From Lacrimispora indolis DSM 755 (GTDB lineage: Bacteria > Bacillota > Clostridia > Lachnospirales > Lachnospiraceae), in NCBI RefSeq assembly GCF_000526995.1, contig NZ_AZUI01000001.1:2046001-2110000 (forward strand): a stretch of 64,000 nt of DNA. Direction: 5' to 3'. Positions 807-48,862 of the stretch are shown here, piece by piece. The position numbers and the translations under genes were made by a program. Numbering within the stretch: position 1 is the stretch's first letter; every line of letters begins with the position of its first letter. Under the pieces are notes generated by a model. The model was given only the letters and a program-made list of their open reading frames with translations. It was not told where the DNA came from and ran no database searches.

Positions 807-997
807 ACGTACATGTTGAAGAGTAAACAGGAGGCGGTCAACCCCGTCTCTTTTTAATACCCAAAACGACACTTATCCACAATGTTGTGGAAACAATTGT
901 GGATTGAGTGTTAATATCTGAAAATACGACACAAAACTGCAAATTATTACAGGGTTTTAGTCGCTTGTTATGCACAAATTGAAAGGAAGTGAGCCAG

Positions 998-1525
998 ATG
1001 GCGTTGTCAGCCAAACAGAAATTATTTGCAGATGAGTACCTGATTGACCTTAATGTCACCAGGCCTTACAAGGCAGCATATACCAAGGTCAAGAAAGATG
1101 AAACAGCCAAAGCGGCTGCAAGCAGAATGTTAACCAATGTTAACGTTGCGGCTTATGTTGAAAAGCGAATGAAGGACCGGGAAAAACGTACTGAGATCAC
1201 CCAGGACATGGTTTTAAAGGAGCTTGCTAAGATCGGTTTCGCAGATATTACTGACTTTGTGACGATTGAAAGCAAAGGAAGCTATAAAGCAGTGCAGATA
1301 AAATCCCCAGATGAAATGCTAAGGGATAAGTTAGGGGTCATTGCCGGAATCAAGGAAGGTGCCAATGAGATAGAAATTAAACTGAATAATAAGGAAAAAG
1401 CCCTGGAACTGATTGGCAGGCACTTAGGTATGTTTAAGGATAAGCTGGAAGTGTCTGGCATTCTGGAGACTGAGAAAACGAAGCTTGATGATTTGATTAA
1501 GCAGATGCGCCGCGGTGATGGATAA
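998..1525 (+). CDS. terS: Phage terminase small subunit
   Basis: A 175-aa protein of the Terminase_2 type, which recognises phage DNA and hands it to the large terminase for packaging. The N-terminal part (ALSAKQKLFADEYLIDLN, then AAYTKV and ASRMLTNVNV) is the typical helix-turn-helix region of this family, followed by a helical oligomerisation region and a charged tail. ATG 998 is preferred over GTG 989 because AAGGAAG lies 8 bases upstream of it, whereas 989 is inside that site. The gene looks intact although its neighbours are broken: the large subunit starts in a TAATG overlap and is destroyed after 17 codons. Confidence 0.85.
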   Translation: MALSAKQKLFADEYLIDLNVTRPYKAAYTKVKKDETAKAAASRMLTNVNVAAYVEKRMKDREKRTEITQDMVLKELAKIGFADITDFVTIESKGSYKAVQIKSPDEMLRDKLGVIAGIKEGANEIEIKLNNKEKALELIGRHLGMFKDKLEVSGILETEKTKLDDLIKQMRRGDG

Positions 1526-2224: not shown

Positions 2225-2738
2225 GCTTTTCTAATTAGCCAACCACCCTGTGGCGATTGCCTTTTTTATTATATTATACTTACTTTTAAAATATTACAAG
2301 TAAAGGAATCTTTACAAAAAATAAGGGTGATTGCGGCAAAGAATATAGGTAGGTGTCAGATTGCATTTTATCCCCATTCCCCCAAGTATGTTTCAGTTTC
2401 GTCAGCATTAACTCTACTTTTATCAACAAATTGCTGCGAGTAACCGTTATTTCGGGCCAGCCCATTACATAAAGTCGTGATACTATTATGATACAAAAAA
2501 AACATATAAACAGTATAAAACATTTGTTTTTATGCGAATTATCTTTAGAATTGCTGTAAAAACAGGGGGTGTCGTGGCTAAAATATGATGGGCTTCGTAA
2601 GAGAAAAGTAAAAAAAACAGGAAAATGGGTCTGTGGGGTTAAATTAATAGGGTTTATGCAGACATTGTCGGAAGCGATTAGAAATCAGAAGGGATATAAA
2701 TGACATAAGAACCGTTAATCTCCTCATAAAGGAGAGGT
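2225..2738. other. Gene-free stretch at the right end of the decayed prophage
   Basis: No frame here has a credible start, ribosome binding site or recognisable product. A short inverted repeat (CCACCCTGTGG) lies at about 2245-2255 and AT-rich promoter-like sequence on the minus strand at 2265-2300. The right prophage repeat is at 2597-2615. Confidence 0.5.
2597..2615. repeat. Right 19-bp direct repeat of decayed prophage (attR-like)
   Basis: Identical to 165-183 and in the same orientation. Trivial continuation of the A tract follows. Together the two copies bound 2.4 kb of integrase, terminase and lysin debris. Confidence 0.5.
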
Positions 2739-2869
2739 GCCGGCAAGATTGGAGGAATCCTGCCGGCAATATGAAAAAAGTTTATTTATAAGGATATTAC
2801 CTGTAACAAGTATTAATATACCGGGCTGTTGTGTAGAAAAGTTGTGGAAGATGTGAACAGTTTGTGAAA
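2739..2869 (-). ncRNA. Small-RNA-like element with phased TTCACA boxes, copy 1
   Basis: Read on the minus strand, hexamers TTCACA (2863-2868), TTCACA (2852-2857), a degenerate third box (2841-2846) and TACACA (2830-2835) are spaced exactly 11 bases apart. After 9 bases comes a -10 box TATATT (2815-2820). The predicted RNA starts near 2808, forms a weak AGG/CCT hairpin and ends in GCCGGCAGGATT...AATCTTGCCGGC (2739-2767). That stem pairs completely only on the minus strand, where the one non-Watson-Crick pair is G-U rather than A-C. Copies 2 (42997) and 3 (48726) share the layout. No U tract follows directly. Confidence 0.55.
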
Positions 2870-38089: not shown

Positions 38090-39451
38090 ATGAGTATGAA
38101 AACACAGAGAAAAGCAATTGATATGATAACAGATTCACCGGGAAGGGCACTTTTGCTCTTTGCCCTTCCCATGATTCTTGGAAATTTATTTCAGCAGTTT
38201 TATAATATCATAGACTCCGTGGTGGTAGGGCGGTTTGTAGGGGAGGAAGCGTTGGCTTCGGTAGGGGCTTCCTATTCCATTACAAACGTGTTTATTGCCA
38301 TTGCGGTAGGTGGCGGAATCGGAAGCTCGGTGGTTGTGTCCCAGTTTTTAGGGGCAAAACAGACAGGAAACATGAAAACCGCCATATCTACCACCCTTAT
38401 AAATTTTCTTTTGATCGGTGTGATATTAGGCGGTCTGGGGCTTCTTTTCAATCACCGGATTTTAAGCTTCATGAATACCCCTGAGAATGTATTTGATGAT
38501 GCTGCGGTGTATCTGGGCATTTATTTTATGGGGCTGCCTTTTTTATTCATGTATAATGTGCAGGCCTCGGTTTTTCAGGCCCTGGGAGATTCAAAGACTC
38601 CTCTGTACTTACTGGTCTTTTCTTCTCTCTTAAATGTTGGATTGGACCTGCTGTTTGTGGTCCAGTTTTTCATGGGAGTAGCCGGTGTAGCAATCGCCAC
38701 GCTGATCGCCCAGGGGCTTTCCGCAGTCCTGTCATTTTTCATTCTGATGAGAAGGTTAAAGAAGTATGAAACAACGGAACAGTTCCGGCTCTATGACTGG
38801 AATATGATGCTTCATATGATGCGGGTAGCAATTCCCTCCACCCTTCAGCAGTCCATAGTTCATATCGGAATGCTTCTCGTACAATCCGTTGTCAATGTAT
38901 TCGGTTCTGCGGTCATGGCGGGCTTTGCGGCAGGGACCAGGATCGAATCCATCTGCATTGTTCCCATGCTGGCTCTGGGAAATGCAATGTCCACCTATAC
39001 TGCCCAGAATATAGGTGCAGGAAGGACAGACCGGGTGAAAAAGGGCTACCGTTACTGTTATTTCATGGTGGGTGTTTTTGCTGTGATCATCTGTATCATC
39101 ATGGAAACGTGGGGAGATTGGTTCATAAGAAGCTTTTTAAATGAAGGAAGTGCGGAAACGGCATTTAAGACGGGAATGGATTATGTCCGGTTCATCTCAT
39201 TCTTTTACGTGTGCATTGGTCTTAAAGCGACCACAGACGGGCTTTTAAGGGGGGCAGGAGATGTGGTGGTGTTTACTGCAGCCAATCTGGTAAACCTTGC
39301 GATCCGGGTGTCAGTGGCTGCTTTGCTGGCCCCCGTTATTGGCGTCCAGGCCGTTTGGTTTGCGGTTCCAATGGGCTGGACGGCCAATTATATCATATCT
39401 TTTTTCCGCTACCTGACGGGAAAGTGGGAGAGGATAAGGCTTATTTCTTAA
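38090..39451 (+). CDS. MATE-family efflux pump
   Basis: A 453-aa twelve-helix transporter of the NorM/DinF-like MATE group. LFALPMILGNLFQQFYNIID in helix 1, GGGIGSSVVVSQFLGA, and GNAMSTYTAQNIGAGR in the second half are typical. It is a paralogue of the pump at 16132, with the same spacing of motifs, but clearly diverged. ATG 38090 lies 15 bases after the lipoprotein stop. The 3' end overlaps the convergent kinase gene by 11 bases. Confidence 0.9.
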   Translation: MSMKTQRKAIDMITDSPGRALLLFALPMILGNLFQQFYNIIDSVVVGRFVGEEALASVGASYSITNVFIAIAVGGGIGSSVVVSQFLGAKQTGNMKTAISTTLINFLLIGVILGGLGLLFNHRILSFMNTPENVFDDAAVYLGIYFMGLPFLFMYNVQASVFQALGDSKTPLYLLVFSSLLNVGLDLLFVVQFFMGVAGVAIATLIAQGLSAVLSFFILMRRLKKYETTEQFRLYDWNMMLHMMRVAIPSTLQQSIVHIGMLLVQSVVNVFGSAVMAGFAAGTRIESICIVPMLALGNAMSTYTAQNIGAGRTDRVKKGYRYCYFMVGVFAVIICIIMETWGDWFIRSFLNEGSAETAFKTGMDYVRFISFFYVCIGLKATTDGLLRGAGDVVVFTAANLVNLAIRVSVAALLAPVIGVQAVWFAVPMGWTANYIISFFRYLTGKWERIRLIS

Positions 39452-41708
39452 TGGGGAAGGCAACGCCTGCCTTAAATAAATCTCCGTCAATGTAAAGCCT
39501 TAAATCTCCGCCCTGGAGCTCGGCCAGGCTTTTGGCGATGGAGATCCCAAGGCCGCTTCCTTCCGTTGTCCGGGCAACATCGCCGCGGACAAAGCGTTCG
39601 GTCAGTTCATCAGCCCGGATGTTTAAGGGGTTTTGGGAAATGTTTTTCATGGTAAAGACTGCCATATTCCCTTCCACGGTAATGTCCACGTATACCCGGC
39701 TGTGTTCCATGGCATACTTAAACGCATTATTATAAAGGTTTTCAAGCACCCTCCACAGATACCGGCCGTCCGCCTCAATCAGGATGGATTCGGCCGGTAA
39801 GCTGGAGACCAGTTCTAAGTGGCGGAGGGCAAACTTTTCTTCAAATTCTCCATTAGTTTGATGGATGAGTTCTACAAAATCAATGCTGGTGATCTCCAGC
39901 TTTAAATTCCCTGAACTTGCCTTTGAGGCTTCTACCAGGTCTTCTGTCAAAGTCTTTAGCCTCTGGGACTTTTGTTCCAGAACTTCCAAATATCCCTGAA
40001 TCTTTGGATCCTGTATCTGCTCCCTTTTTATAAGGTCCACATAGTTTATGATGGATGTAAGGGGAGTCTTGATATCATGGGACACATTGGTGATCAAGTC
40101 TGCTTTTAAGCGCTCGCTACGCACCTTTTCCTGGAGGGCTGTCTCAAGTCCTGTGCTGATGTGATTGATATGCTCAGCCAGCTCCCGTTCTTTCCCGTTA
40201 AATGCCATGGTTTCGATCTTATAGGTGGTATCTCCATTAGAAATGTTTAAAAGAGCTTCGTTGATCTGGTCGGTTTCCCATGCATTCTTGTACATCTGAT
40301 GAAATACGAGAAAATCCAGGCAGAAAAACAATACGGCAACTGCACCCATAAGGATCCTGGATTCCAGGCTGCTATAGGTAAACAGAAGAAAAGCAAAAGC
40401 CATTGTCATTCCAATGTTAAAAACCAGGAACAGGATATAGAAAAGCATGATCCGGGTGGTGAAGCGGTGGTTCTTTACATACAGGGACAGGTTTCGAAAT
40501 CCCCGGTACGTTAGGCTTCCGGTCCAGAGATTACCTTCCTTATACCGCTTTAAAAGGCTTAAGGCAGCTGACAGTCCGGCTGCGTAATAAATAAGAATAC
40601 GCAGTGCCAATTCTCCGTAATCCCATAGTTCATCAGAAAGGAAAAGATGAATGATCTTATATGCCACCTGGTTTGCAAGAAACAGGGTCAGAATGGCAGC
40701 GCCGGCAAACAGAAGCATGCAGCTTTCTGCCGGGAGCCGGTGGATCCGCTCCATAGGACCAGAGCCATGTTCCTTATCCGGATGCCCGATGTGGTTTACG
40801 AGGGCGTAAAGGGTTGCTGCACAGCCTAAAATCCCCAGGCACAGGCTTATCATTCCAATGATGAACAGCAGGCGCATCCGGTCATAGGAGGCGGAAGCCT
40901 GGGCGTAAGCGTCATCAAAGGGATAGGAAGTGTCCACGGCTATGGTCATATGGTAATTGCCGTTGTTATAGGGATTCATCTTTTCAAGCTGGGAAGAAAC
41001 ATTTTTCGGAACATTACTTAAATTGGAATCCACGTAAAGGGCTTCTCCGGTTACGTAAAGATATTTTCCCATGGCCTTAAAGTCATTTACTGTTTTTCCG
41101 GAAACATTGCTGTAAAGCTTATAATCTTCCTCCGTGTTATGATAGAGAATTTCGAACTTCAGATTACTGGGATTCTGGATAAAGCGGTAATAAAAAGAAT
41201 AGTAATTGCCCAGGTGGGTCAGCACCTCATAGGCCAGCTGGTCCATGGTGAGAAATGCTTCCCCAGGCTCCGTGATCTTAAAATCCGGTTCATATGCCCG
41301 GTAATCCACCCGTACATAGGAATCTCCGTCATTGGAGGCCGGCTGTCCTCCGCTCACTTTAAACTGTTCATTCAGATAAAAGCCCAGGGACTTGGCCCTG
41401 CGTATCATCTCATCTACCGTATATTCCGTTGTGGTCCCAGGACCTTCCATAACCCTGGCAATGGGCTTGGAATAATCAAGCTTTCCGTTGGTTTCAAATA
41501 CTTCCTTATATTTTACATAGTTAAAAATATCATCAATATCGGATTTGAGCTGGCGGGTGAAGTCAGGCGTGTCCTCATAGGTTTCATGGGTGATCCAGCG
41601 GATGCCCTCTCCGTAGTGGGAATTGCTGTACATGATGGAGACGCCGATGACAACAAGAAGGGAGAAGAGCATGTGCAGGAAGACTGCAAAATCTGTTCTT
41701 TTTTTCAT
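39441..41708 (-). CDS. Membrane sensor histidine kinase (VanS-like group)
   Basis: A 755-aa sensor. An N-terminal helix, a large extracellular region (about 35-270), and a cluster of about six further membrane helices (about 275-455) precede a HAMP-like linker. The HisKA domain has the phosphorylated His in NVSHDIKTPLTSIINYVDLI (about 548), and the HATPase_c domain has the N box NNAFKYAMEHS and the G box GSGLGISIAKSLAE. The full set of catalytic motifs is intact. The gene is 8 bases downstream of its response regulator. The signal is not evident from sequence. Confidence 0.9.
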   Translation of the reverse strand: MKKRTDFAVFLHMLFSLLVVIGVSIMYSNSHYGEGIRWITHETYEDTPDFTRQLKSDIDDIFNYVKYKEVFETNGKLDYSKPIARVMEGPGTTTEYTVDEMIRRAKSLGFYLNEQFKVSGGQPASNDGDSYVRVDYRAYEPDFKITEPGEAFLTMDQLAYEVLTHLGNYYSFYYRFIQNPSNLKFEILYHNTEEDYKLYSNVSGKTVNDFKAMGKYLYVTGEALYVDSNLSNVPKNVSSQLEKMNPYNNGNYHMTIAVDTSYPFDDAYAQASASYDRMRLLFIIGMISLCLGILGCAATLYALVNHIGHPDKEHGSGPMERIHRLPAESCMLLFAGAAILTLFLANQVAYKIIHLFLSDELWDYGELALRILIYYAAGLSAALSLLKRYKEGNLWTGSLTYRGFRNLSLYVKNHRFTTRIMLFYILFLVFNIGMTMAFAFLLFTYSSLESRILMGAVAVLFFCLDFLVFHQMYKNAWETDQINEALLNISNGDTTYKIETMAFNGKERELAEHINHISTGLETALQEKVRSERLKADLITNVSHDIKTPLTSIINYVDLIKREQIQDPKIQGYLEVLEQKSQRLKTLTEDLVEASKASSGNLKLEITSIDFVELIHQTNGEFEEKFALRHLELVSSLPAESILIEADGRYLWRVLENLYNNAFKYAMEHSRVYVDITVEGNMAVFTMKNISQNPLNIRADELTERFVRGDVARTTEGSGLGISIAKSLAELQGGDLRLYIDGDLFKAGVAFPIKK

Positions 41709-41716
41709 AAATACAC

Positions 41717-42412
41717 CTATTGTTTTTCAATCTTATAGCCAACACCCCATACCACTTTTAAATAACGGGGTTCTCTTGGATTGATTTCGATTTTTTCCCG
41801 GATGTGCCGGATGTGCACGGCAACGGTATTATCGGCGCCGATGGCTTCTTCATTCCATATCTGTTCATAGATCTCGTCAATGGAAAATACTTTACCGGCG
41901 TTCTTTACCAGGAGCAGCAGGATGTTGTACTCAATGGGAGTCAGCTTGATCAGCTCGCCTTCCACGGCAACTTCCTTGTTGTCGTCATTGATGGCCAGGC
42001 CTCCGCATTTATACACTTGTCCTGCCGGCTGCTGGTTCATATTACCAAGCTGGGTATAGCGGCGCAGCTGGGATTTTACCCTGGCTACCAGTTCCAGCGG
42101 GTTAAATGGCTTGGTAATATAATCATCAGCCCCGATGTTTAATCCCAGGATCTTATCCGTGTCCTCGGATTTGGCGGAGAGGATGATGATGGGAATACTG
42201 CTTGTCTCACGGACTTTTAAGGTGGTCCTGATCCCGTCAAGCCCCGGCATCATCACATCCAGGATCATTAAATCCACCTCGTGATCCTCCAGAAGCTTCA
42301 GGGCGTCATAACCGTCATAGGCTTTGATCACATGAAATTCTTCTCCTGTTAAATATATATCAATGGCTTCCACGATTTGTTTGTCATCATCACATACTAA
42401 AATATTCTGCAT
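41717..42412 (-). CDS. OmpR-family response regulator (VanR-like)
   Basis: A 231-aa regulator. The receiver domain (1-118) has the acidic pair CDDD, the phosphoacceptor Asp in DLMILDVMMPG near residue 53 and Lys in ITKPFNP. The Trans_reg_C winged helix (about 130-231) contains LTPIEYNILLLLVKN and TVAVHIRHIREKIE. ATG 42412 is chosen because AAAGGAGG lies 7 bases upstream. It is cotranscribed with the sensor kinase. Regulators of this family bind tandem hexamers with an 11-bp step; the TTCACA arrays at 2.8, 43.1 and 48.8 kb have that geometry, but a link is speculative. Confidence 0.92.
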   Translation of the reverse strand: MQNILVCDDDKQIVEAIDIYLTGEEFHVIKAYDGYDALKLLEDHEVDLMILDVMMPGLDGIRTTLKVRETSSIPIIILSAKSEDTDKILGLNIGADDYITKPFNPLELVARVKSQLRRYTQLGNMNQQPAGQVYKCGGLAINDDNKEVAVEGELIKLTPIEYNILLLLVKNAGKVFSIDEIYEQIWNEEAIGADNTVAVHIRHIREKIEINPREPRYLKVVWGVGYKIEKQ

Positions 42413-42504
42413 ACGAAAACCTCCTTTTTCAATATTATACAACGAAGGCCGTAAAAAAGCACATTACATTTTTATGATTTTTCTAAACCCTTTATTTATG
42501 CGTA

Positions 42505-42720: not shown

Positions 42721-42990
42721 CTGATTCAAGTGGAAAAATTGATGAAGTTCTCAAGGAAGGCAGTAAACTAAAATAAACGGTATCACTGGAGAAGAAGCCA
42801 ACTCCAGAGATGTGGGAAGATTTTCAGAACAGGTGAACTGCCTGAATATTGCATTGGACGCAGAGGAAGCAGTAAATATGGGGCCATATGTTTTTGATGA
42901 TGTCGGAAGCGTATTGCAGCGGCTGGTTTAACATCAAACCAATACGATAGAGAAGTCGGCAACGGGGAGTAAAACAAACCCATAAAAATA
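42721..42990. other. Mobile-element debris without intact genes
   Basis: A frame without start (about 42781-42932) reads ITGEEANSRDVGRFSEQVNC and ends LQRLV before TAA; it is acidic and unrecognised. No ribosome binding site or promoter is evident. Confidence 0.4.
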
Positions 42991-42996
42991 GAGGAA

Positions 42997-43125
42997 CCGG
43001 CAAGATCGGGAATCCTGCCGGCTGAAGTGTGAAAAAGATTTATGTATAAAGGCCATTGCCTATTTGTAATTAATATACCTGGAAATTGTGACAGGAATTT
43101 GATGGATCTGTGAAGAGTTTGTGAA
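42997..43125 (-). ncRNA. Small-RNA-like element with phased TTCACA boxes, copy 2
   Basis: On the minus strand the boxes TTCACA (43120-43125), TTCACA (43109-43114), ATCAAA (43098-43103) and GTCACA (43087-43092) are exactly 11 bp apart. Nine bases later comes TATATT (43072-43077). The predicted RNA, from about 43065, has an AGGC-aat-GGCCT hairpin and then CCGGCAGGAT-tcccg-ATCTTGCCGG (42997-43021) and a T-rich stretch ending TATTTTT. As in the other copies the stem is complete only on this strand. Four hexamers of this type and spacing resemble PhoP/OmpR-family binding regions. Confidence 0.6.
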
Positions 43126-43180: not shown

Positions 43181-43507
43181 ACTCATGAAGAATATTGATA
43201 AAATGTCAACTTCAGATTAATTATATCTTTTACAGGAGGTTGTACCTATGAAGATAGCACTCATAGATGTTATTTCCGAAGAGGTTGTTAAACTCTTTTC
43301 AGAACAAGATAATTTTATGATAGAGTTTCTCGGCGGTGATAGTGTTTATTATACCCGCTATAGCAAAAATGAAAACATAGAAAATGTTTGGGTGGCCTAC
43401 TTTGGCGACTTGCCAATCGGATGCGTTGCTTATCGAAAAAAATCTATTGGTGTTGGCGAGGTTAAACGTATGTTTATTAAGCATGAATATCGTGGACGAG
43501 GAATATC

Positions 43508-44870
43508 GATAGTGTCAAGATTTTTTCGCAAATTGTATTTCAACCGTCTGGTAGCCGGTAGTTAGCCGGCTATGATATCAGACTCGTTTTGGAGATCCAT
43601 TTCTTTTAGATGCTCCATATTCATGTAGCGCTTTGTACCCCATTGGGTCCCTGCTACGTGTCGTAGTCTGGCACATACAAGCATTAAAGCACTTTGCCCA
43701 TCAGGAAAAGCGCCAATTGCCCGGGTTCTACGTTTGATTTCCCTATTAAGTCTTTCGATGGTGTTGTTGGTGCGAATTCTAGTCCAGTGCTGGCTAGGAA
43801 AATCCATGTATGTAAGGGTTTCCTCGATTCCGTCTTCGACCTTTTTAGCTGCCGAAGCTAATTTCATCTCGCGAAGTTTATCAGCTACTTGTTTTGCCTT
43901 TTCCTTTGCAGATACCTTACACTCTTGAGCATGAATAGCCTTTAGCAGCATAGAGACTTCTTTCATCTTATTACGAGGAGTGGCCGAAAATATATTCCGA
44001 TAGAAGTGAACCGTACATCTTTGATACTTTGCATCCGGAAATACTTCTGGAATGGATTCGAGCATCCCAAGGCATTTATCACCAATAATTAGGCGCACTC
44101 CAGCCAGGCCACGTTCTTTTAACCATACAAAGAATGTCCTCCAGCTTTCACGATCTTCTTTCATACCTTCTGCTGTGCCAATGATTTCACGGCATCCATC
44201 TTCATTGACACCAATAGCAACAAGGATAGAGACATTTTGAACTTCACCACCCCAGCTGCGCTTTAAGTAAACACCGTCAACATAAACATATGGATAAGAA
44301 CCGCTAAGTTTGCGGCTTCTCCATGTTTCAATGTGTTCATAAGCTTTTTTATTAAGATTACTTATTGTTCCAGGTGAAATTTTAGTTCCCCATAATGCCT
44401 CGGTGATATCTTCAACACGGCGAACAGAAACACCCGCGAGATACATTTCAATGAGAGCCTCTTCTACGGAGCATTCTCTGCGGCGATAGCGTTCAATAAT
44501 GGCAGTTTCGAACGGAACACCCTTTAGCTTTGGCATCTTTAATTTGACCTCACCAGCTGTGGTTTGAAAGTTCCTGCTGTAATGGCCGGAACGATATCCC
44601 TTGCGTTCACCGGAACGTTCGTATTTTTCCGCATTAACGAGTTCTTCTGCTTCATGATCCAGCAAGGCATTGAGGGTTTCCTCAACGCTGTTGCGTACTA
44701 AATCTTTCAATTCGTTATGGATAAGTTCCTGATTTAATTGTATAATATTATCAGACATGTTCTATAGCCTCCTTTGAGAGTATTTTGTGTGGTAACTTAA
44801 TTCTACCAAACGGCTATAGACCATGTCTATTTTTATGAAATTAAATTTGCGAAATTAATTATACGTCATC
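43508..44870 (-). mobile_element. IS256-family insertion sequence, complete
   Basis: A 1363-bp element with 8-bp target duplications GGAATATC at 43500-43507 and 44871-44878. The ends are imperfect inverted repeats that start GAT and share TTTCGCAAATT and ATTTCA at the same distances from both tips. It contains a single intact transposase gene on the minus strand. Identical target repeats and an otherwise clean interrupted gene indicate a recent insertion. Confidence 0.93.
43562..44758 (-). CDS. IS256-family transposase (Transposase_mut)
   Basis: A 398-aa DDE transposase. The catalytic Asp are in YVYVDGVYLKRSW and LIIGDKCLGM, and the Glu is in RTNNTIERLNREIKRRTRAIG; the CTVHFYRN motif between them is diagnostic of the family. 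The N-terminal region binds the inverted repeats. ATG 44758 is preceded by AAAGGAGG. The gene fills the element and is uninterrupted, so the element may be mobile. Confidence 0.95.
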   Translation of the reverse strand: MSDNIIQLNQELIHNELKDLVRNSVEETLNALLDHEAEELVNAEKYERSGERKGYRSGHYSRNFQTTAGEVKLKMPKLKGVPFETAIIERYRRRECSVEEALIEMYLAGVSVRRVEDITEALWGTKISPGTISNLNKKAYEHIETWRSRKLSGSYPYVYVDGVYLKRSWGGEVQNVSILVAIGVNEDGCREIIGTAEGMKEDRESWRTFFVWLKERGLAGVRLIIGDKCLGMLESIPEVFPDAKYQRCTVHFYRNIFSATPRNKMKEVSMLLKAIHAQECKVSAKEKAKQVADKLREMKLASAAKKVEDGIEETLTYMDFPSQHWTRIRTNNTIERLNREIKRRTRAIGAFPDGQSALMLVCARLRHVAGTQWGTKRYMNMEHLKEMDLQNESDIIAG

Positions 44871-48582: not shown

Positions 48583-48725
48583 GATTGATGCTCCTTTCGC
48601 TTTTCAGTAGTGTCTGCAGAACAAAAAATAATATGCAAAATGCTAAGAATTTAACTCAATAGAGGGGGAAGAAACATATTATAAAAATTATGATTTTCCG
48701 AAGTATTTGCCTTAAAACGAAAGGG

Positions 48726-48862
48726 GCCGGCAAGGAGACGAAACCCTGCCGGCTGAAGCATGAAAAGAAGCTATATATTAAAGGGTTATTAACCTCTTTG
48801 TGATTATTAATATACCTGGAAATTGTGACAGGAATTTGATGGATATGTGAAGAGATTGTGAA
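48726..48862 (-). ncRNA. Small-RNA-like element with phased TTCACA boxes, copy 3
   Basis: On the minus strand: TTCACA (48857-48862), TTCACA (48846-48851), ATCAAA (48835-48840), GTCACA (48824-48829), all 11 bp apart; 9 bases; TATATT (48809-48814). The predicted RNA, from about 48802, has an AAAGAGGTT-aat-AACCCTTT hairpin. It ends in GCCGGCAGGG...CCTTGCCGGC (48726-48753), then CCCCTTTCGTTTT. The first hairpin differs in sequence from copy 2 but is still paired, which supports a structured RNA. Confidence 0.6.

Follow-up and report, generated by a model that had tools for sequence, protein, structure and literature searches.

A multi-copy sRNA gene family of Lachnospiraceae with phased OmpR-type promoter boxes and predicted pairing to translation starts

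The window analysed here, a 64,000-nt stretch of the Lacrimispora indolis DSM 755 genome, contains three copies of a gene for what is probably a trans-acting sRNA of a multi-copy family, activated by an OmpR-family regulator and sealing the Shine-Dalgarno (SD) sequence together with the start codon of mRNAs, mostly for exported proteins. By computation, we found a gene family with phased-box promoters, a covarying hairpin and constant unpaired segments that are complementary to translation starts. The family, to which copy 1 belongs, is one of Lachnospiraceae and apparently has not been described before; a search of the open literature (as distinct from subscription papers) found no description of it. 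The accessible part of a transcript-mapping paper of a Lachnospiraceae member, C. phytofermentans, mentions non-coding RNAs and the Rfam sRNA sau-50 (PMC5171806).

Copy 1 lies on the minus strand (43125 down to 42983) and consists of the array TTCACA-N5-TTCACA-N5-ATCAAA-N5-GTCACA, nine bases, TATATT, an ~85-nt RNA, a hairpin and a pyrimidine-rich tail (Table 1). All coordinates of the original prediction—four hexamers at an exact 11-bp step, nine bases, TATATT and a terminal hairpin—check, and the layout it saw repeated near 2.7k and 48.7k is indeed there, with the same promoter at both places. The boxes are the presumed site of an OmpR-family activator, and we infer a transcription start near 43065 and a transcript reaching to ~42980. 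As the U-run starts only after 6–8 pyrimidine-rich nt, the terminator-like hairpin would make a weak canonical terminator. The layout is not a chance arrangement, since the exact pattern of two boxes, spacing and GTATATTAA occurred at four sites in the 6.38-Mb genome (none for the reversed-pattern control) and the four-box pattern, allowing ≤3 mismatches, at 10 sites (control, 0).

Table 1. Features of the three sRNA gene copies in the window (window coordinates, contig coordinates in brackets).
Feature	Position	Strand	Basis and remarks
Copy 1, phased boxes TTCACA/TTCACA/ATCAAA/GTCACA	43087..43125	-	11-bp step; sequence and controlled pattern searches; also in relatives
Copy 1, single boxes	TTCACA 43120-43125, TTCACA 43109-43114, ATCAAA 43098-43103, GTCACA 43087-43092	-	sequence
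Copy 1, -10 element TATATT	43072..43077	-	9 bp past last box; sequence; conserved as TATATTAAT
Copy 1, sRNA region	42983..43077 (2088983-2089077)	-	model R1 match, 82.6 bits; copy 1 is among the seven source sequences of R1
Copy 1, short first hairpin AGGC-AAUG-GCCU	43050..43061	-	fold; weak covariation in helix 1
Copy 1, putative anti-start segment CUUUUUCACAC	43027..43037	-	family consensus CUUUUUUUCAUAC; conserved columns in alignments A4 and A5; pairing calculations used the consensus
Copy 1, terminator-like hairpin GCCGGCAGGAU-UCC-CGAUCUUGCCGGU	42995..43023	-	13 pairs; fold and covariation
Copy 1, putative anti-SD tail CCUCUAUUUUUA	42983..42994	-	consensus CUCCUCCCUUUUU; tail conserved in A4 and A5
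Copy 2, promoter	2815..2868	-	phased boxes 2830-2868, TATATT 2815-2820
Copy 2, sRNA	2726..2817 (2048726-2048817)	-	model R1 match, 92.5 bits
Copy 3, promoter	48809..48862	-	phased boxes 48824-48862, TATATT 48809-48814
Copy 3, sRNA	48713..48811 (2094713-2094811)	-	model R1 match, 88.0 bits

In total, the genome of L. indolis holds about ten copies of the sRNA gene. BLAST with copy 1 returned seven having both promoter and hairpin, plus further partial ones, and a covariance model built from seven own-genome transcripts with the boxes left out (R1) gave 13 matches at E≤5. Each of the window's three RNAs folds better than all 200 of its dinucleotide shuffles (z = –3.6, –4.7 and –4.2). One copy (L012) lacks, by eye, exactly one 11-bp unit with the phase kept, as expected if helical phase matters. 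Others have decayed: L015 is reduced to the hairpin, and in L014 (own genome, ~2650 kb) an internal deletion joins the box region to the hairpin; judged by eye, the DNA beside it is similar to that beside copy 1, and the two may share ancestry. Near copy 2, a phage terminase small-subunit gene (window 989–1525) suggests a prophage remnant.

R1 matched all 25 same-genus (Lacrimispora-group) genomes, with 4–14 matches each at E≤0.1. Of 397 Lachnospiraceae genomes, 31 were found by a two-helix model (R2, E≤1e-4) and 99 by a 55-nt core model (R3, E≤0.001), the latter leaving 298 without a match under strict filters. When R3 was applied to a class-wide draw, nine of 391 genomes matched, all nine of them Lachnospiraceae, which makes this draw a good specificity control. 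Outside the genus, 81 of the 97 R3-matching genomes showed a single match and four showed 4–6. The covariance-model search of the family proposed earlier has thus recovered relatives, with covariation in the further copies. Rfam 15 at gathering score, run over the window and 19 loci, likewise bore the original prediction out in that only nearby tRNAs, and no family for the sRNA, were returned; at E≤5, one sub-threshold snoRNA match lay on the opposite strand, outside the element. Three partial copies were excluded before clustering, and a Bacillaceae locus returned by one search (L174) was left out of the analysis.

The terminator-like stem carries compensatory changes both within and beyond the genus. 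Among 39 genus members (alignment A4, from 40 representatives; L072:4020, which lacks the U-rich segment, was excluded and L061 trimmed), double changes occurred at 10 of 12 pairs. In 32 family-wide members with very different stems (alignment A5, hand-picked from 62 core sequences, with the mis-cut L217 excluded), they affected 10 of 11 pairs in 75 cells, 92.7% of cells were paired, and the covariation score was reached by none of 500 shuffles. The stem also pairs better when read leftward, clearly so in the genus set (94.2% of 467 cells vs. 88.0% on the other strand; 39 G-U, 10 A-C) and by a small difference in the wider set (92.7% vs. 90.4% of 343 cells; 13 G-U, 5 A-C). In line with this, the one non-canonical hairpin position previously reported as G-U on the minus strand was seen by eye in all three window copies. 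The claim that the first hairpin varies yet stays paired was the weakest statement of the earlier account: the hairpin does exist, yet pairing reaches just 84% of its cells, with double changes at three of six pairs, in four cells in all. Taken as a whole, the proposal of a multi-copy, leftward-read regulatory RNA is supported by the copies, the conserved OmpR-type direct-repeat promoter, the covarying structure and the lack of an Rfam match.

Phased boxes also lie upstream of the RNA, although the model that found the copies did not contain them. Of 112 distinct copies with upstream DNA, 64 had four phased TCA boxes, 19 three, 25 two, two a single box and two none. Among 92 distinct arrays at a fixed distance from the –10 element, C occupied position 3 of boxes 1 to 4 in 81, 83, 87 and 87 cases, counted without filtering. 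The box matrix, by contrast, drew on 81 of these arrays, chosen by their box 1 or 2, and in this subset the T preceding the C varied more in boxes 3 and 4. At 26 of 37 R3 core loci, the upstream four-box score was reached by at most two of 200 mononucleotide shuffles, and 11 had no array above the shuffle threshold; same-genus loci in this set are not independent, and at least two (L298, L302) come from the Lacrimispora group itself. The promoters have direct repeats of ~11 bp close to the –10 element and no –35 element, and by analogy this geometry (11-bp direct repeats, 9–10 bp before –10) is that of OmpR-family activators such as CiaR.

The original prediction was right in seeing a regulatory RNA and overlooked what is likely its mechanism, namely an anti-start-codon and an anti-SD segment flanking the hairpin. 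The hairpin is bordered by CUUUUUUUCAUA on its 5′ side and by CUCCUCCC on its 3′ side; both remain constant while the stem changes, and both are single-stranded. CAUA is near-invariant in the 32 diverse members with differing stems, which were picked by models that include the segment. CUUUUUUUCAUA complements AUGAAAAAG or UAUGAAAAAG, in which lysine codons follow the start codon. CUCCUCCC complements the SD sequence GGGAGGAG; the order of the segments allows simultaneous pairing with start and SD, with the hairpin bulging out. In copy 1, the anti-start segment has CAC where the consensus has CAU, so GUG starts would be its match.

Across unselected starts (150 of 291 genes), predicted pairing averaged –9.0 kcal/mol; sites within these genes averaged –4.0, and swapping the two segments gave –7.6. 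On 80 such starts, none of 40 segment shuffles reached the real value. A search for GGAGG-N3-14-TATGAAAAA gave 55 genome matches, two of which share one start, vs. four in the control; the first 30 loci in genome order were fetched and yielded 28 frames, the other two being the reverse strand of copy 2 and a 3-residue frame. These 28 starts paired at a mean of –15.1 kcal/mol (shuffles, mean –7.7 and best –12.0; one shuffle engaged both segments on 28/28), energies that are circular and illustrate anatomy only, because the starts were chosen by complementarity.

By a rule combining hydropathy, charge and lipobox, 20 of the 28 frames were exported-like and 12 lipobox-bearing (15 by eye; the rule figure is used). 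For comparison, 290 genes were sampled by running a crude gene caller on the window and on Lacrimispora loci; the same rule called 32 of them exported-like and five lipobox-bearing (Fisher's test, p = 7e-12 and p = 8e-11, respectively). Pfam detected solute-binding families in nine of 20 motif proteins scanned; choline-binding-repeat proteins, a transport permease and others made up further results, and three had no family at the cut-offs used. It is the AUGAAAAA motif itself that carries this enrichment for exported proteins. Exported lipoproteins as a class commonly start with AUGAAAAA, and the point of the target class would be that the conserved segment of the RNA reads such a start. Among the unselected genes, exported-like proteins made up five of 14 with ATGAAAAA starts and 27 of 276 with other starts.

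A mechanism can be proposed in which transcription, regulator, repression and target class are all inferred. A phosphorylated OmpR-family response regulator would bind the four 11-bp-phased TTCACA boxes, which replace a –35 element, and activate the TATATT promoter, giving a transcript of ~75–100 nt that ends at the terminator-like hairpin. CUUUUUUUCAUA would then anneal to AUGAAAAAG, covering the start codon and the lysine codons that come first, and CUCCUCCC to the SD sequence, the hairpin bulging out to face the spacer between the paired sites. Such pairing would block ribosome entry on mRNAs that here mostly encode exported proteins, notably ABC solute-binding lipoproteins, and several near-identical copies could add up to a strong response. 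More tentatively, we suggest that the sRNA may act throughout Lachnospiraceae, its two-part seed reading a generic exported-lipoprotein start (SD plus AUGAAAAAG, the lysine-rich beginning of the signal peptide), so that a two-component system sensing the envelope or nutrients could turn down the ABC solute-binding lipoproteins all at once, as a whole class.

Other explanations of the locus appear less probable. That the family is OmpR-activated, with C-rich and U-rich segments serving mainly a protein partner (an Hfq-like chaperone or an RNase) or termination, and with few and specific targets, is unlikely. Chaperone-bound sRNAs typically have such U-rich, pyrimidine-rich tails, and when lipoprotein preference was assessed on unselected genes, of which only five in 290 were lipobox genes, the anti-start segment gave p = 0.26 and the anti-SD segment p = 0.23; yet the segment is more than U-rich, given the near-invariant CAUA (in members found by models that include it), and none of 40 shuffles suited translation starts as well as the real order and sequence of the segments. 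A dispersed, MITE-like repeat carrying promoter and terminator by chance, which we consider very improbable, would account for the 4–14 matches per same-genus genome, for the decayed copies L014 and L015 and for a Mutator-type transposase gene ~440 bp from copy 1. Covariation already disfavors it, as compensatory stem changes go along with constant unpaired segments; moreover, 81 of 97 R3-matching genomes outside the genus hold a single match, and no neighboring gene family recurred in more than 10 of the loci compared (at most 10, 6, 6 and 5 loci for aldolase, whiA, HPr and cyclophilin, by eye). Still more remote is a cis-acting leader, or attenuator, of the downstream gene: the nearest downstream frame is co-directional for five of 11 own-genome members, e.g. 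L063 before a phosphofructokinase-like gene (by eye), but opposite in five and absent in one, and three of the five co-directional frames are shorter than 95 aa and probably spurious. An opposite-strand small protein (SD-like GGGAGGAG, then ATGAAAAAAAG) was rejected, the SD-like run lying behind the hairpin, ~30 nt off, and the frames, in 103 of 112 copies, ending anywhere between 4 and 33 residues (36 of them at 6), with no length shared throughout.

Regarding the regulator, it had been suggested that the boxes are those of PhoP and the RNA one of phosphate starvation, which now looks improbable. B. subtilis PhoP boxes are TT(A/C/T)A(C/T)A repeats with ~5-base gaps; the TTCACA boxes fit this loose consensus, and the pstS promoters likewise have an 11-bp repeat. 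PhoP is nevertheless not favored, because the pstS promoters of 25/25 same-genus genomes carry TTTACA-N5-TTTACA instead, in a different register to the –10 element; the sRNA boxes have C at position 3 in 81–87 of 92 arrays, neither pstS locus of the own genome scores with the box matrix, and the boxes can equally be read as the CreB/BlrA tag TTCACN6TTCAC, as given in the accessible part of the source (PMC4689548). The TTTACA repeat, conserved right before a TATACT-like –10 element (L139, L344–L367), is a candidate Pho box of this genus. About 540 bp beyond the downstream end of copy 1, the same strand encodes a two-component pair (window 39441–42442) that is VanR/VanS-like but falls short of the NCBIfam cut-offs for the true proteins. 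As a dedicated regulator it was rejected: in tblastn at E≤1e-8 against the loci compared, with the regulator and the last part of the kinase as queries, the regulator matched beside copy 1 only, and the kinase gave one weak match (22% identity, L148); family loci added afterwards yielded nothing more than a weak match at an edge (L311/L228). The array matrix, run over 29 Trans_reg_C loci of the own genome with 1.5-kb flanks, found a full array only beside copy 1's neighbor. Autoregulation was likewise discarded as a pointer to the regulator, the best three-box upstream score being a weak, unconvincing site (L255; in L244, the kinase frame was taken), and an NCBIfam scan of 20 of the 29 loci (one being the L244 kinase) gave no PhoP or CreB at E≤1e-70.

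Returning to the reading as a start-sealing sRNA, its closest known counterparts, as far as the accessible parts of the sources go, are the csRNAs and LhrC. The csRNAs of Streptococcus, controlled by CiaRH, are multi-copy, have strong promoters with TTTAAG-N5-TTTAAG at an 11-bp step 10 nt before –10, and expose unpaired anti-SD and anti-AUG sequences, with CAU in 53 of 61 (PMC3091779). The present family shares the multiple copies, the OmpR-type 11-bp repeat before –10 and the unpaired anti-SD and anti-start segments; unlike csRNAs, it has four TTCACA-type boxes rather than the CiaR repeat NTTAAG-N5-TTTAAG, occurs in another bacterial class and lacks an Rfam match, and its two segments flank the terminator-like hairpin instead of lying unpaired between two stem-loops. 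Several copies per genome were found within the genus, but 81 of 97 other matching genomes show one. LhrC1–5 of Listeria monocytogenes are multi-copy, need the two-component system LisRK and block the SD of the mRNA for the cell-wall protein LapB (lapB) through a C-rich motif; the accessible part of the source describes three UCCC motifs that are redundant and located in loops and single-stranded RNA, and mentions no anti-start segment (PMC4132741). Multiple copies, presumed two-component control and a C-rich anti-SD motif are shared with LhrC, and no similarity in sequence or structure was found, with only tRNA at Rfam gathering score. The sRNA is filed under neither csRNA nor LhrC, because box sequence and layout differ and Rfam matches are confined to tRNA. 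LhrC itself is an Rfam family. Boxes 1 and 2 form the same 11-bp direct repeat as the cre/blr tag, which the accessible source places upstream of creD in Gram-negative bacteria (PMC4689548); here, in contrast, four boxes precede an sRNA.

In enterobacteria, the single sRNA GcvB represses many mRNAs for ABC-transporter binding proteins. The predicted targets here are of the same kind, whereas regulator, sequence and chaperone dependence differ from those of GcvB. By analogy, the sRNA would work like csRNAs and LhrC as an OmpR-driven, translation-start-blocking type, with a two-part seed around a terminator-like hairpin and a spread through Lachnospiraceae as its own traits. Members of the family can now be detected with models, its promoter code is defined, and its target rule lends itself to testing; should the interpretation hold, the family would be a case of convergent evolution of the csRNA/LhrC scheme and offer a handle on how Lachnospiraceae, which rank among the most common bacteria of the gut, throttle their many nutrient-uptake lipoproteins.

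Several loci deserve mention in their own right. Two members without boxes of their own, L062 1501–1589 (own genome 5282300–5282388) and L120 1582–1668, place U-rich segment, hairpin and anti-SD tail shortly past a gene's stop codon, the same in both genomes, as if the RNA were cut from the 3′ end of the gene; the gene upstream of the L062 member encodes 154 aa and is cupin-like by eye. Five phased degenerate boxes (L135 ~1501–1539, own genome 953918–953956, minus) lie upstream of a gene named by eye as an ABC-transporter ATPase, with no sRNA; this gene may belong to the regulon as one of its protein-coding members. In three genomes (L064, L124, L127), one divergent copy precedes a same-strand tRNA gene array by ~140–156 bp. 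Next to copy 1, a short GNAT-type acetyltransferase frame (window 43248–43565) abuts the Mutator-type transposase gene (43562–44758) and may have been cut short by its insertion. Finally, a divergent sRNA-like locus not listed by R1 (L133 from 1501, own genome 1763386, plus) comprises boxes, TATACT, TTTTTCATA, a hairpin and TCTCC, and ~550 bp downstream of it lies a P-type cation ATPase gene whose start has the full SD+GTATGAAAAAA target motif.
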